23,984 nt of DNA from a virus: the IMG/VR virus record IMGVR_UViG_3300044627_000187, positions 1-23,984 of that record. The stretch is one strand, 5' to 3'. The stretch's first letter is position 1. The number at the start of each line of letters is the position of its first letter. The notes beneath the pieces were generated by a model. The model saw nothing but the letters and a program-made list of their open reading frames with translations. It ran no database searches and was not told the DNA's origin. Both the position numbers and the translations under genes were made by a program. Shown here in pieces: positions 7,530-19,382 of this stretch.

Positions 7530-8156
7530 CTACGCCATCGCACCTGTCTTAGGTTTATCAGGGCGCTTGATGTTCGTCATAGGGCTCTTACTTGATTTGT
7601 CATCTAAGTAAGGCTTGAATGGATCAAAACTATCTGGAGTACGTTTTGCATTGAATTGCAAATCTTTACCTTGGAATCCATCTTTTGCCTGATCTTTTAT
7701 ACTGTCAAGGTAAGAATTGCCATAATCTTTGCTTGCTTTCTTTGCAGCATCACCTGCATCTTCTAATTCTTCATGTGTCAATACTGGACTATGTTCCATC
7801 TGATTAGCATACTCTTCTTGTTCTTTATTGATGCTATCATCATATTTGCTATCAACTAATCTTACATAATTAACATTATATCCTAACAATTGTGCTAACT
7901 GTTGAACCATTGGTTCTGTAGCAGGATAACGGAACTTACATTTTAATAATGTTACAGGTTCGTTGTGAATACCAGGAAAACCATATGGGTCTTTAGCGAT
8001 AGGTAAAGTTTTAGTTCCTATCTCTCCAACCGGGTCAAACTTCTTTAGATTAAATTTAAACATGTCTAAGAAGTTTTTATCAACTTCTCCGGCTATTTTG
8101 ATTGTCACTTCATATAAGTGAACGCTTTCCACGATGTAATGTTTTAGATTCTTCAT
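7530..8156 (-). CDS. Conserved T4-like marine phage protein of unknown function (208 aa)
   Basis: It begins MKNLKHYIVESVHLYEVTIK. The first 110 residues look like a compact alpha/beta domain (KNFLDMFKFNLKKFDPV, DPYGFPGIHNEPVTLLKCKF, EPMVQQLAQLLGYNV), while the last 90 are charged and probably disordered. The pattern is familiar from cyanophage-type genomes, where I recall it only as a hypothetical or virion-associated protein. It lies between the gp16-like terminase subunit and the 1497-aa gene, with a 10-base gap to the latter, so the two are almost certainly co-transcribed. Its own late-type promoter overlaps the end of the terminase gene. A role in head assembly is possible from context but not shown. 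Confidence 0.7.
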   Translation of the reverse strand: MKNLKHYIVESVHLYEVTIKIAGEVDKNFLDMFKFNLKKFDPVGEIGTKTLPIAKDPYGFPGIHNEPVTLLKCKFRYPATEPMVQQLAQLLGYNVNYVRLVDSKYDDSINKEQEEYANQMEHSPVLTHEELEDAGDAAKKASKDYGNSYLDSIKDQAKDGFQGKDLQFNAKRTPDSFDPFKPYLDDKSSKSPMTNIKRPDKPKTGAMA

Positions 8157-8175
8157 ATATAAATCCCGTATCTAA

Positions 8176-8183
8176 TATTTATC
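8176..8183 (-). promoter_or_regulatory. T4-type late promoter (GATAAATA) for the 208-aa gene
   Basis: GATAAATA on the minus strand overlaps the TGA stop of the small terminase gene (TGATAAATA). It lies 19 bases before the ATG at 8156. A GGGA element stands between it and the start codon. Confidence 0.55.
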
Positions 8184-8661
8184 ATTTTTCCAGATTTTTA
8201 TCTAAAAGTGTCTTTAGCAACTCGTTACGATCTAAAACTTTGCCCTCCCCTATAGGGGTAGCCTCAATTTGCTTTTCGTTCGCAGACAATTTCTGGTCTA
8301 GACTTGCTTTCTTTAACTGTAATTCAATCATTTTTAGTTTTTTCTGTACTTTTGCTGTTTTGGCTGTAATAGCATGTCCTAACATAGTACCCGCAACATT
8401 GAATATCTCGCTGCTATAGCGGCTATCTACTTGCATGCCTAGATCCATCAAATCTTTATAACTGGCTTGTGCTAATTCTGCAAGACTATCCATTTCTGTA
8501 TCCGCGCTTTCTAGTCCACGGACCTGAGGTAACGCTTGCTCAATCTTTTCTATGTTAGTCAATGCTTGTTCTGTTACTTCCTGCGTATTTTCAGGTAGTT
8601 CAAATTGTTCATCAGTATTTTGGGCTGCTAGGTTGAAGAGTTCTTCTAATTTCTTAGTCAT
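8182..8661 (-). CDS. 16: Small terminase subunit, T4 gp16-like
   Basis: At 159 residues it is close to T4 gp16 (about 164). The N-terminal 60 residues are acidic and variable. The centre (about 60-125: AELAQASYKDLMDLGMQV, SSEIFNVAGTMLGHAITAK, VQKKLKMIELQLKK) is a long helical hairpin, as in the gp16 family, whose core has a similar pattern of helix, small turn, helix. The family forms a ring that recognises DNA and stimulates the large terminase ATPase during head filling. It follows the gp4-like nuclease gene, whose stop lies 7 bases before this ATG. The large terminase gp17 is not in the window. The assignment rests on length, helical pattern and context, with no catalytic signature to confirm it. 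Confidence 0.7.
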   Translation of the reverse strand: MTKKLEELFNLAAQNTDEQFELPENTQEVTEQALTNIEKIEQALPQVRGLESADTEMDSLAELAQASYKDLMDLGMQVDSRYSSEIFNVAGTMLGHAITAKTAKVQKKLKMIELQLKKASLDQKLSANEKQIEATPIGEGKVLDRNELLKTLLDKNLEK

Positions 8662-8665
8662 GTAT

Positions 8666-8673
8666 TATTTATT
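8666..8673 (-). promoter_or_regulatory. Weak candidate late promoter (AATAAATA) before the gp16-like gene
   Basis: AATAAATA on the minus strand overlaps the stop of the gp4-like gene. It ends only 4 bases before the ATG at 8661. A transcript from it would start at or inside the start codon, so this may be a chance match in AT-rich sequence. Confidence 0.2.
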
Positions 8674-15133: not shown

Positions 15134-15532
15134 TTGGCAAAAAAGCGCACTTTAGCAAACCTTCAAAGGTTTTTAAGTAAATACAACGTGAGACCTATCT
15201 GTAAGCAATGTAACAAGAACTTTTGTGCTGTTAACTATATAAAAAACGATGTTCGTCACTATAGGAGCATATGTGACGAATGCGGCAGTAAAAAGCCTAA
15301 GGTTAAGCCTAAACAAAAAAATTGGGAAAAAGCAGGCTATAAAAAGAAAACAGTCTGTGATAACTGTGGATTTAAGGCTTTATATAATACTCAAATGACA
15401 GTTTTCCATATAGACGGAAATCTTAAGAATTCAAAACACAACAATTTAAGAACAATCTGTTTGAATTGCGTAGAGATTGTTAAACGTAAAGAAGTAACTT
15501 GGAAGCGAGGAGACTTAACTGTTGATTATTAA
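15134..15532 (+). CDS. HNH-like zinc-ribbon protein (132 aa)
   Basis: Two zinc-binding Cys groups are visible: C23xxC26 with C47xxC50, and C75xxC78 with C109xxC112. Between the latter pairs is FHIDGNLKNSKHNNLRTI, with His92, Asn96 and Asn103/104, which has the layout of an HNH treble-clef nuclease motif. HNH proteins of this size act as DNA nicking or cutting enzymes or packaging partners. Similar small proteins occur in cyanophage-type genomes, but their substrate is unknown to me. The start is a TTG directly after an in-frame TAA, with no clear ribosome-binding site and no alternative ATG before the first zinc pair. It runs opposite to its neighbours and overlaps the dNMP kinase 3' end by 18 bases. 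Whether it is active cannot be told. Confidence 0.75.
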   Translation: MAKKRTLANLQRFLSKYNVRPICKQCNKNFCAVNYIKNDVRHYRSICDECGSKKPKVKPKQKNWEKAGYKKKTVCDNCGFKALYNTQMTVFHIDGNLKNSKHNNLRTICLNCVEIVKRKEVTWKRGDLTVDY

Positions 15533-16153: not shown

Positions 16154-16182
16154 AGTATAACAATAATTTGTAGTAAAATCAA
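16154..16182 (-). promoter_or_regulatory. Sigma70-like early promoter of the dNMP kinase gene
   Basis: On the minus strand TTGATT and TATACT are separated by exactly 17 bases. The -35 box overlaps the TGA stop of the neck gene. The ATG at 16147 begins 7 bases after the -10 box, at the expected start of transcription, so the mRNA would be leaderless or nearly so. Confidence 0.6.
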
Positions 16183-16964
16183 CCCTGTATCCAAGTTAAG
16201 GGCTGGCTATAATCTTGGTATCGGCGTAAATCTTCAAGCAATCTTTCCATATCTGCTTTGCCTTCTGCTTTCAGTGCTGTACCATTTAATGATGTTCCAC
16301 CGCCCGGACCTGCTATCGTAGCAAATTTTTCACGCGCTTCACCGATAATCATTTTAAGTTGAGAAAAAATAAAGTCATTTAACCAGACACCTATACCCGG
16401 ATCCTGTAATAATTCAATTTCTGGTCTCTGCACGTCCGCCCAAATTAATACACGCTCACCTGTACCTTTAAAGTCGCGCACGACCTTTAATATTTTGGTA
16501 ACAGGGTTAAATGTATAAGTTACATAACCACCGAACATACGTGCTGCTAGTTCTACATAGCCTGCATAGAAATCGTATGTAGCCATACCACCTGTATAGT
16601 TGTAGTTTAACAAATATGTGTTGAGAATAGCACTACTGAATGGGTCAAAACTTGTGCTGCTAGGGCCAGTCTCTAGACCTACTGTTCTACGGAATATAGC
16701 ACGAACGTTTATAAACTCGCTAGGTAAGGTATATGTGTCTACGTTTTTAATGATCGTCATCAAAGTATAACTTTCTATATTCGCATTCTGCGCACGTTGA
16801 CGGTAAACTTTTAAAGCATAATCGTAAGATGCTTCGTAGTGCTGAGGATCTAATTCAAGGTCAATTATATCACCACCTAAACGTAATCTTAAGTTATTAA
16901 ACATCTGCTCTTTCAATTCTTGTAAAGAAAGATTAGTAGGTACTGAAAGTGGATCGTTAGCCAT
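16179..16964 (-). CDS. 13: Neck protein, probably T4 gp13-like (261 aa)
   Basis: The N-terminal pattern LQELKEQMFNNLRLRLGGDIIDLELDPQHYEASYDYALKVYRQRA, followed by VDTYTLPSEFINVRAIFRR, matches what I recall of the gp13-type neck proteins of marine T4-like phages. These have a helical connector domain and a beta core. The C-terminal half includes a helical segment (WLNDFIFSQLKMIIGEAREKFA) and ends LTWIQG. In T4, gp13 and gp14 close the filled head and form the site of tail attachment. Here gp14- and gp15-like genes lie 2.4 kb away on the other strand. The ATG is preceded by GGGAATTTTT, inside a hairpin that also contains a late promoter. Identity as gp13 rather than another neck component is moderately sure. 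Confidence 0.65.
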   Translation of the reverse strand: MANDPLSVPTNLSLQELKEQMFNNLRLRLGGDIIDLELDPQHYEASYDYALKVYRQRAQNANIESYTLMTIIKNVDTYTLPSEFINVRAIFRRTVGLETGPSSTSFDPFSSAILNTYLLNYNYTGGMATYDFYAGYVELAARMFGGYVTYTFNPVTKILKVVRDFKGTGERVLIWADVQRPEIELLQDPGIGVWLNDFIFSQLKMIIGEAREKFATIAGPGGGTSLNGTALKAEGKADMERLLEDLRRYQDYSQPLTWIQG

Positions 16965-16998
16965 AAAAATTCCCGATAATGTATTATTTATCGGGAAT
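16964..16998 (-). terminator. Terminator hairpin of the MazG operon overlapping the neck-gene ribosome-binding site
   Basis: An 11-bp perfect stem ATTCCCGATAA/TTATCGGGAAT with an 8-base loop begins 10 bases after the MazG stop on the minus strand. It is followed by TTTT and then the neck-gene ATG. The second arm includes the GGGA that would serve the neck gene as ribosome-binding site. Confidence 0.75.
16985..16992 (-). promoter_or_regulatory. T4-type late promoter (GATAAATA) inside the terminator hairpin
   Basis: GATAAATA spans the first arm and loop of the hairpin. T4 late transcripts begin about 6 bases after the octamer, which here falls at the start of the second arm (about 16979). The resulting mRNA would lack the first arm and leave the GGGA and ATG exposed. 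Confidence 0.6.
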
Positions 16999-17008
16999 AA
17001 TATTCAAA

Positions 17009-17458
17009 TTAAAGATCGTTTGCTTTGCGATTTTCGCTATAGTAAACGTCAAACTTGCCGCCCGGATAACGTGCTTCAAGTTTCTTCACGTTCTCTGCTA
17101 CTACGTCATTGGGGTCAAAGCCCAATGCACGACAAGCATTGATCCAGTACCACATGATATCGCCCAATTCACGCTTCATATGAAAGTGTGCTTCTTCATT
17201 GAGCGGCTTACCCTGAAACACGACCTTTTTTACGATCTCTTGGAACTCGCCTGTCTCGCTACCAAGACCGATAGCACCACAAAGCAATAGTGGTACATTG
17301 ATATCTGGTCCATGCATGTACTCACCGTCCGGACCATAACTTTCATAATTAGCATCAATACGATCTAACCTATCCATAAACTCAGTAAGGTCCTGACTAG
17401 GCTTGCTAGTGACTGCCTCTACAAACTGCTTATATTTGTTTAAATCTACCTGGCTCAT
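17009..17458 (-). CDS. mazG: MazG-like nucleotide pyrophosphohydrolase (149 aa)
   Basis: The metal-binding signature of all-alpha NTP pyrophosphohydrolases is present: Glu68-x-x-Glu71 in GLGSETGEFQE and Glu97-x-x-Asp100 in KRELGDIMWYW. The C-terminal NVKKLEARYPGGKFD is also typical. The family hydrolyses NTPs or dNTPs to monophosphate and pyrophosphate. In marine phages it is thought to adjust nucleotide or alarmone pools; which substrate applies here is unknown. Its ATG overlaps the stop of the 64-aa gene (ATGA), so the two are translationally coupled. It ends the minus-strand non-structural operon, and a terminator hairpin starts 10 bases after its stop. Confidence 0.9.
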   Translation of the reverse strand: MSQVDLNKYKQFVEAVTSKPSQDLTEFMDRLDRIDANYESYGPDGEYMHGPDINVPLLLCGAIGLGSETGEFQEIVKKVVFQGKPLNEEAHFHMKRELGDIMWYWINACRALGFDPNDVVAENVKKLEARYPGGKFDVYYSENRKANDL

Positions 17459-17649
17459 ACTAAATCCTTAAACATTTCTTTACGACCATTTGGACCCAAC
17501 GTAGCATCAAAGATTTCTCTTGTACGTTGTAGCATAGCGCATGCCAACATGAGTTGATCATTTCTATCATTAGTAGATAGAATTGCGGTATCAATAACCG
17601 TCATCATAGTTTGCATACGTGCCTCGATTGGATTAAACTCACCTTTCAT
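17455..17649 (-). CDS. Small helical protein of unknown function (64 aa)
   Basis: A 64-residue helical protein (NPIEARMQTMMTVIDTAIL, NDQLMLACAMLQRTREIFD) with no recognised motif. A strong GAGGTG ribosome-binding site precedes the ATG. The stop overlaps the MazG start by four bases, so it is very probably a real gene and made together with MazG. It could be a partner or regulator of that enzyme, but this is only suggested by the coupling. Confidence 0.75.
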   Translation of the reverse strand: MKGEFNPIEARMQTMMTVIDTAILSTNDRNDQLMLACAMLQRTREIFDATLGPNGRKEMFKDLV

Positions 17650-17669
17650 TATTCACCTCTAATAGTTTT

Positions 17670-18188
17670 TTAAACTTTAATTGACCACAAACTTGTGCCC
17701 TGATACAACTGTACCTCTTTATTATACAAGGACGAAAAATATTTTACATTTTCTATCACGTCAGGAAAACTTTTATGGTAATCATGCCCACATAACATGA
17801 AACTTTTTTTAAAAAATTTTTGGAAATGATTAAAATTTTGAATGTCGTTAGGGTTAGTATGAGCAGCATCCATAAAAAATATATCAATTGAATCACCGGG
17901 ATAATTTATATTTTTAGGGCTAACTCCTTTTAACACAATAATGTTGTCACAATCTTTTGTATTTCTTTTAAAGTTTTCGTAAATGTTAGGTATTTTTTCG
18001 TTTTCAAATTTGTCTATACAATAAATCTTCACACTTGGGTCACAAGATTTTGACCAACAATAAGCAGACCTGCCTTGATGAGATCCTAATTCAACGATGA
18101 CTCCGTTTTTCGGAACTGACTGAGACCAGGACTCAATAATTTTAAGTTCTGGCTCAGTCATATGTCCTGAAATACTTATGTCATACAT
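17670..18188 (-). CDS. SAM-dependent methyltransferase, class I (172 aa)
   Basis: Motif I is clear: VIVELGSHQGRSAYCW (residues 30-45), followed by an acidic strand end at Asp59 (KIYCIDKFE). FFMDAAHT at 105-111 provides the second acidic site, and MLCGHDYH follows. This layout fits the Methyltransf_24 group of small Rossmann methyltransferases, whose substrates include sugars and small molecules. No DNA-recognition domain or DPPY-type motif is present, so DNA methylation is less likely. The gene starts 5 bases after the 376-aa gene and 20 bases before the 64-aa gene, as part of an operon. Its DNA is strikingly A/T-rich compared with the gene upstream, suggesting separate acquisition. Confidence 0.8.
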   Translation of the reverse strand: MYDISISGHMTEPELKIIESWSQSVPKNGVIVELGSHQGRSAYCWSKSCDPSVKIYCIDKFENEKIPNIYENFKRNTKDCDNIIVLKGVSPKNINYPGDSIDIFFMDAAHTNPNDIQNFNHFQKFFKKSFMLCGHDYHKSFPDVIENVKYFSSLYNKEVQLYQGTSLWSIKV

Positions 18189-18193
18189 ATCTT

Positions 18194-19324
18194 TTAGAAT
18201 GCCCGCAAGATGATCATGTTAGCATTGAATCGTCCGTTAGGCTTAGCACCAACTGCCTTGATACTATCAAAGAATTTACGTGCAGCCGGCTTGCTACCCA
18301 TCACTTCCTTGATTTGCTGTTCGGGCTTACGTAGAGTTTTGATTTCTGATTCCTTAGTACAGAAACCAACTACAGTGTTGCCCTTGACGCTAAGGCTCTT
18401 AGCATACTCATCTGCGACATAGTGATGCAGTTTGCGCTTCTTAGTGTCGTAGACCCACGCTTCACTACAATTATGTAGTTTAGTCGGGCTCACGCTCTCA
18501 AGTTCAAGTTTCTCCAACTTGAAAGTCTTGAGATACTTGAGGCGCTTGACGATCTTCTCGACCGGCACAGGCTTCTTAGCGCGTGGCTTCTTACCTGCCT
18601 TCTTGAGATTGATATACGCATTGAGATCGGCGATGACAGTCTGAATAGTATTGATAATGTTCTTCAATTGAACCTTACCAAAACGCTCATAGGCTTCATT
18701 CAACTGCTCGTCCTTACCTGCAAGGACCTCTTCATACTCATAGAGTTTGCCTTCCCACGCACTAACCAACATAGGTACATGCTGCGGTAGAATGTTGCGC
18801 TGAGACAACAAGTCCATTGCCTTGATGCCTTCCTTACCAGCACCAGATTTCAGATAATCATCCCACAAGCCCTCAAGTTCACCACCAACTTGTTGAGTAC
18901 GCTCACGCATGATCTCCTGCACGTTGGGGCGATTGCTAGTAGGGGCTTCATCGTCAGAGGTATCTACCGTTGTGAATGACACAAGACGATCAACCTCACT
19001 CTGAAGTTTGTTCAAAGTGTCGTTTGACACTACACTTCCCCTCAGAATACAACGCGCAAGCCAACCATAAGTGGTCTTAATGTGTCTATCATTGACACGG
19101 CGTATGCTTTTAGCAACTTGTTGCTTGCCCGCAACATCTAGATATTGGGCAATGAATTCTTTAGCGTCCTTGTTATCGTAAAAGTGATTATACCAATTGA
19201 ACGCCTTAGCGAGTTCCCAATCAGTCGCAACCAGATCAGCATTGAAACTGGGTTCGGGACCAATGTGCTTCAAGTCAAAGTCCTTAGGCTTCAACTCTCT
19301 GATTTCTACTTTGTGCTTTACCAT
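18194..19324 (-). CDS. Conserved T4-like marine phage protein of unknown function (376 aa)
   Basis: No catalytic motif is recognised. The N-terminal third is helical (WELAKAFNWYNHFYDNKDAKEF, RHIKTTYGWLARCILRG). The middle is acidic and helical (GELEGLWDDYLKSGAGKEG, YEYEEVLAGKDEQLNEAYERF). A Lys-rich linker (KKAGKKPRAKKPVPVEK) leads to a beta-rich C-terminal part with SEAWVYDTKKRKLHHY, VVGFCTKES and KTLRKPE, ending in NGRFNANMIILRAF. I recall similar hypothetical proteins in cyanophage genomes. Lys richness could mean nucleic-acid contact, but this is a guess. The gene is the first of the early-type operon ending with MazG, has a good sigma70-like promoter and an ACGGAG ribosome-binding site. 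It is visibly more GC-rich than its neighbours. Confidence 0.75.
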   Translation of the reverse strand: MVKHKVEIRELKPKDFDLKHIGPEPSFNADLVATDWELAKAFNWYNHFYDNKDAKEFIAQYLDVAGKQQVAKSIRRVNDRHIKTTYGWLARCILRGSVVSNDTLNKLQSEVDRLVSFTTVDTSDDEAPTSNRPNVQEIMRERTQQVGGELEGLWDDYLKSGAGKEGIKAMDLLSQRNILPQHVPMLVSAWEGKLYEYEEVLAGKDEQLNEAYERFGKVQLKNIINTIQTVIADLNAYINLKKAGKKPRAKKPVPVEKIVKRLKYLKTFKLEKLELESVSPTKLHNCSEAWVYDTKKRKLHHYVADEYAKSLSVKGNTVVGFCTKESEIKTLRKPEQQIKEVMGSKPAARKFFDSIKAVGAKPNGRFNANMIILRAF

Positions 19325-19353: not shown

Positions 19354-19382
19354 ATTTTACGCTAAAACAGGGCTAAAGTCAA
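19354..19382 (-). promoter_or_regulatory. Sigma70-like early promoter of the non-structural operon
   Basis: On the minus strand TTGACT and TAAAAT are separated by 17 bases, one or two mismatches from consensus in each box. The leader of about 25 bases contains GGAG before the ATG at 19324. This promoter would drive the 376-aa gene, the methyltransferase, the 64-aa gene and MazG. Confidence 0.7.

Follow-up and report, generated by a model that had tools for sequence, protein, structure and literature searches.

In bacteriophage T4, the ribosome-binding sites of e, soc, 49 and I-TevI are hidden in early RNA and freed in the RNA that starts at an overlapping late promoter (PMC3014915, PMC2988022); mobE and segB work likewise (PMC3014915, PMC2988022). 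The genes guarded by such hairpins are late genes located on long transcripts together with early and middle genes (PMC2988022). The hairpins of Aeh1 mobE and of T4 segB, I-TevII and I-TevIII (PMC2988022) have the same layout as the one described here, but they guard mobile genes, while the present hairpin stands before a virion gene.

The locus in question is the junction of a mazG gene and a neck gene in a 23,984-nt stretch of DNA from a jumbo T4-like phage (the window; positions 1 to 23,984 of IMG/VR record IMGVR_UViG_3300044627_000187). As in T4 e, soc, 49 and I-TevI, the late promoter overlaps the first arm of the hairpin, the Shine-Dalgarno (SD) sequence lies in the second arm, the first arm would be missing from the late RNA, and the gene is located behind codirectional genes. 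Unlike in the four T4 cases, the gene is a core neck gene, the octamer is GATAAATA, the arrangement is kept across distant jumbo phages and a T-run follows the stem in some of them. The initial annotation had named e, soc and I-TevI as precedents, and the published accounts (PMC3014915, PMC2988022) do concern the same device. The mechanism proposed below is that of the known T4 e, soc, 49 and I-TevI device, and the neck gene is an addition to its targets; in the open-access literature, searched mostly by keyword, we found no earlier account that places it at a neck gene or in a jumbo phage. The leader of T4 gene 13, which belongs to the orthologous gene family phrog_211, was considered as a precedent and rejected, since its hairpin is positioned upstream of the SD sequence and has no nested octamer.

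All elements of the junction are on the minus strand. The neck gene (16179..16964, ATG at 16964) codes for the head-tail adaptor Ad2 of the T4 gp13 type; it matched phrog_211 with E 1.2e-23, and T4 gp13 matched phrog_211 too, which places both in the same family. The 11-bp hairpin (16998-16969) reads, from 5', as the first, promoter-side arm ATTCCCGATAA (16988..16998), the loop ATAATACA (16987-16980) and the second arm TTATCGGGAAT (16969..16979), followed by TTTT and the ATG. The late octamer (16985..16992), a strand-biased motif upstream of structural genes, begins in the last bases of the first arm and runs into the loop. In T4, the late octamer occupies positions -13 to -6 relative to +1. 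By this spacing rule late transcription is predicted to start at 16979, the first base of the second arm. The SD sequence GGGAA (16970..16974) is inside the second arm and paired in the predicted read-through RNA, while the T-run between the stem and the ATG (16965..16969) is a possible terminator tail. Thus the 11-bp hairpin, the octamer in its first arm and loop and the ribosome-binding site in its second arm are all present as the initial annotation had described them (its range, 16964-16998, extends over the T-run to the first base of the ATG), and the start that it had put at about 16979 is the position given by the T4 geometry.

The last gene of the upstream unit, a MazG-like pyrophosphatase (17009..17458, minus strand; phrog_229, E 1.5e-45), has its stop at 17009. 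The remaining codirectional unit (17455..19324, minus strand) codes for proteins of 64 aa, 172 aa (methyltransferase-like) and 376 aa (phrog_11903), and the motif scan of the window found no NATAAATA octamer within it. Before the unit there is a sigma70-like promoter match (TTGACT, 17 nt, TAAAAT; 19354..19382, minus strand) with 10 of 12 consensus bases, a kind of match that barely exceeds chance in the scanned region of the window. This match, along with the absence of the late octamer over about 2.3 kb, weakly suggests that the upstream genes form an early-type operon. Downstream of the neck gene are the genes of a dNMP kinase and then of the tail sheath, the same order as in Pseudomonas phage PA5oct. 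We also observed a small plus-strand ORF (15134-15532), antisense between the dNMP kinase and sheath genes, with a weak match to an HNH endonuclease (E about 1e-3).

The stem by itself has 11 pairs and a free energy of -13.4 kcal/mol. For the 81-nt region folded as plus strand, z was -3.2 and none of 200 shuffles folded equally well. Folding of early versus late RNA, a check suggested in the initial annotation, gave a cost of opening the start region of 14.0 kcal/mol in the read-through RNA compared to 2.3 kcal/mol in the late RNA, with 0 of 100 shuffles as high. In the predicted fold of a 140-nt read-through RNA, the probability that the SD GGGAA is unpaired was 0.013; in a longer late RNA, weak alternative folds left it partly paired (probability unpaired about 0.18).

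We consider it highly likely that the junction is a timing switch at the mRNA level, in which the stem would hide the neck SD sequence in read-through RNA and late initiation within the stem would relieve it. The RNA reading through from the mazG unit would carry both arms and fold into the 11-bp stem; with the SD sequence hidden, ribosomes could not start on this RNA. Late RNA polymerase with a gp55-type sigma would recognise GATAAATA inside the stem and start at about 16979. Because this predicted +1 is the first base of the second arm, neither the first arm nor the loop would be part of the late RNA, which could form no stem and would allow translation of the neck gene. We infer from the DNA that the late polymerase uses the octamer, where exactly +1 lies, that the neck gene is actually repressed, and when it is expressed.

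A comparison with relatives supported the claim of a ribosome-binding site hidden in read-through RNA and freed by a late start in the stem. From 79 IMG/VR neck junctions we obtained 47 distinct sequences, whose loci are related to one another, and the junction counts are not independent. Over these 47 the stem score was 19.2, compared to 10.3 with the upstream part shuffled; 32 of them were individually significant in the stem shuffle test (p<0.05), and in arm swaps the native arm outscored the foreign arm in 82%. Covariation was assessed in an alignment (A4) of 26 distinct junctions, all of the CCGAT class, with the CTGAT class not included. Compensatory changes, as the initial annotation had proposed to look for, were found: 27 cells were altered on both sides of a pair, compared to 14.7 in shuffles, and the covariation score was 0.172 versus 0.093, a value reached by 0 of 500 shuffles. 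When the partner was slid by 1-3 columns, the score dropped to 0.084 or less. Loss of the stem in relatives with the same gene order, which the initial annotation had named as a refutation, was not seen, although a few had a weakened stem.

Across all clades, 75 hairpins had 67 distinct arm pairs. The pre-start arm paired with the SD region in 74 of the 75, with the AUG also paired in 25; in L051, L070, L073 and L079 the predicted fold extends over the AUG and the next codons. The same arrangement was present in 12 named RaK2-like jumbo phages (XaC1, 121Q, GAP32, RaK2, XbC2, Hallingskeid, fENko-Kae01, Munch, CBB, BF, RCIP0023 and Kaldavass). These patterns bear on the possibility that a phage RNA-binding repressor uses the hairpin as its operator, like those of T4 gp32 or gp43. 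T4 does have such operators at start regions (PMC3014915), but here the stem sequence, the loop length and the pairing partner vary freely, with only the promoter bases and the pairing kept; as there is no conserved loop apart from the octamer, we rejected this explanation as very unlikely. Chance pairing of an A/T-rich promoter with the start region is hardly conceivable: the A/T bases of the octamer do pair easily and the z value of the region is only -3.2, but the shuffle, swap, slide and gene-specificity tests contradict it and led us to rule it out.

The hairpin could also act on transcription. In the window it has the pattern of an intrinsic terminator, with 11 pairs, of which 4 are G-C, and a T-run directly after the stem. 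The initial annotation had proposed that it doubles as a terminator; the stem and T-run pattern stood, but such patterns occur at chance frequency (3 found in the 4.6 kb scanned versus 3.0 expected) and a T-run follows only 22 of the 75 hairpins, in the window subclade, most RaK2-like phages and two others. It is absent in the other 53 and so is not conserved together with the stem. Most relatives in the window clade, many with mazG upstream, keep the stem without a T-run, and stem and T-run occur together in most RaK2-like jumbo phages; in the GAP32 and Munch records, terminators are annotated elsewhere and not at the neck hairpin. We consider it unlikely that the main role of the hairpin is intrinsic termination of the mazG unit, with the promoter and SD overlap due to a short intergenic space. 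The stem with 4 G-C pairs followed by TTTTT would suit this role, as would the T-runs in most RaK2-like phages, but the stem persists where the T-run is absent, it tracks the neck gene while the upstream gene varies, the number of patterns in the scanned region matches expectation, and the hairpin is unannotated in two records that mark other terminators. A pure terminator as the main role was rejected, since the T-run is not conserved with the stem; termination may be an added role in some lineages and is not the conserved feature. For the window subclade and the RaK2-like phages both roles are possible, though doubtful: within 30 bp that also hold the late promoter, the hairpin would end most upstream transcripts and silence the remainder. 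The T-run, stem and promoter do occur together in L001, L005, L048 and L052 of the window subclade and in most RaK2-like phages; against this, the terminator pattern in the window is at chance level.

If the stem guards against read-through, as we propose, it should be dispensable behind a divergent gene. In the window, the upstream genes are codirectional with the neck gene and have no late octamer. Among 128 distinct junctions, we counted those with a scored promoter, shuffling both the upstream bases and the bases from the octamer to +1. The stem was present in 74 of 82 codirectional junctions, compared to 1 of 6 divergent ones (Fisher p = 2e-4, indicative only, since the loci are related; the directions for L077, L177, L179, L186 and L195 were set by inspection). 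Eight codirectional junctions showed a weak stem. Six divergent neighbours, three of them among the scored junctions, matched known phage families (terminase, endolysin, virion protein and one of unknown function). In one cluster at 80% identity, L175, with a divergent ORF whose direction is less sure as it has no family match, had no stem, while L176, L182, L183, L188, L190, L191, L193 and L194 had it. The anatomy, the compensatory conservation of the stem, the link to a codirectional upstream gene and the specificity for the neck gene, described next, are readable in the sequences themselves.

For the octamers preceding an ORF in 11 related records and the window, upstream arms were scored by shuffling only the bases upstream of the octamer, a procedure that misses first arms located between the octamer and +1; it was also used for GAP32. 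The neck group was conserved in 12 of 12 records; its early-late difference had a median of 9.8 kcal/mol, and 92% of its members were significant. In the remaining late groups the significant share was 0-33%, or 50% in two small groups (n = 6 and 4). Across the 12 records, no late gene other than the neck gene had an upstream arm that was consistently conserved. The idea that the arm is a general property of the late promoters of the clade was rejected, as the tail tube, sheath and other late groups mostly had no arm. The same script gave the highest ranks to the T4 controls I-TevII, e, 49 and segB; the T4 stretches covered did not include I-TevI. GAP32 had no part in forming the idea; its neck gene ranked first of 55 (19.8 kcal/mol). 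Next in rank in GAP32 came the gene of an HNH endonuclease, preceded by a tRNA, and the gene of a virion protein amid small hypothetical genes, with nested late-promoter hairpins at 278826 (GAP32_373) and 16348 (GAP32_032), respectively; the endonuclease gene has a layout of the homing-endonuclease type too.

The late motif itself has a counterpart in described phages. ATAAATA was reported as the late motif of jumbo phages CBB and GAP32, along with a gp55-like sigma, and as in the window the motif precedes structural genes (PMC5259590); hairpins at late promoters are unmentioned in the passages of that paper searched by keyword. In our counts, ATAAATA was the most enriched upstream 7-mer in GAP32, present in 37 upstream regions compared to 4 antisense. 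In the window, the minus strand has 8 copies of NATAAATA and the plus strand has one; most copies directly precede structural genes. A gp55-like sigma was present in 9 of the 9 named jumbo relatives tested; searches of the window-clade records, all incomplete, with a single sequence, two families and a profile did not find one.

Some relatives lack an SD sequence. Of 39 neck genes from a marine clade (L226-L285) and a few others, 37 had GATAAATA, exactly 5 nt and then the ATG, and none of these neck genes had an SD-like triplet at -16 to -5. In two long records of this clade, G017 (L286-L298) and G018 (L299-L309), the exact 5-nt spacing occurred in 24 of 59 and 13 of 46 octamer-preceded genes, with no gene at 0-4 nt; no gene in GAP32 or in the T4 stretches had the 5-nt spacing. 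The late +1 in the marine clade is probably the A of the AUG, which would make the late mRNA leaderless, and the precise spacing points to many leaderless late mRNAs there; we found no paper on leaderless late genes of this type by keyword search of the open-access literature. The fixed spacing also supports the +1 rule applied to the window. The leaderless arrangement is predicted to keep the same logic, as read-through RNA would offer no usable start; other relatives would achieve this through a paired start codon. We lean slightly towards a broader reading for jumbo T4-like phages, in which the gp13-type neck gene would be untranslatable on read-through RNA through an SD stem, an AUG stem or a leaderless start without SD, the device would be absent or weak behind a divergent gene, and the neck would be a translational gate on head-tail joining that has evolved repeatedly.

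Besides the lysozyme, the minor capsid protein and the homing endonucleases for which this textbook T4 device is known, the switch as proposed adds a core virion gene of widespread giant phages to its targets. It leads to a testable rule: a late gene that follows codirectional genes of non-late type has its SD sequence hidden or has none. If right, the switch shows how phages can put late genes after early ones and avoid leaky early synthesis, prompts the question of why early neck protein would harm, and helps to locate promoters in uncultured phages.

Several other late promoters showed related features. At 8661-8673 of the window, on the minus strand, a gene of 159 aa starts 4 nt past AATAAATA with no SD sequence and is probably leaderless too; its apparent orthologue (start MTKKLEE) has the 5-nt spacing in G017 and G018. 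Late promoters at 2920-2951 and 8156-8183 of the window (minus strand) are located between short complementary arms (CCCG..CGGG and AAATCT..GGATTT), with no significant sequestration on scoring. A second recurrent late-promoter hairpin was observed before a tail-fibre-like gene on the minus strand (L095:3056, L106:5946, L109:9150, L112:14597 and L101:8080). Here CATAAATA is followed by the stem GTTGTAC..GTACAAC, which ends at the ATG, with the first arm between the octamer and +1 and a compensated version in L101.
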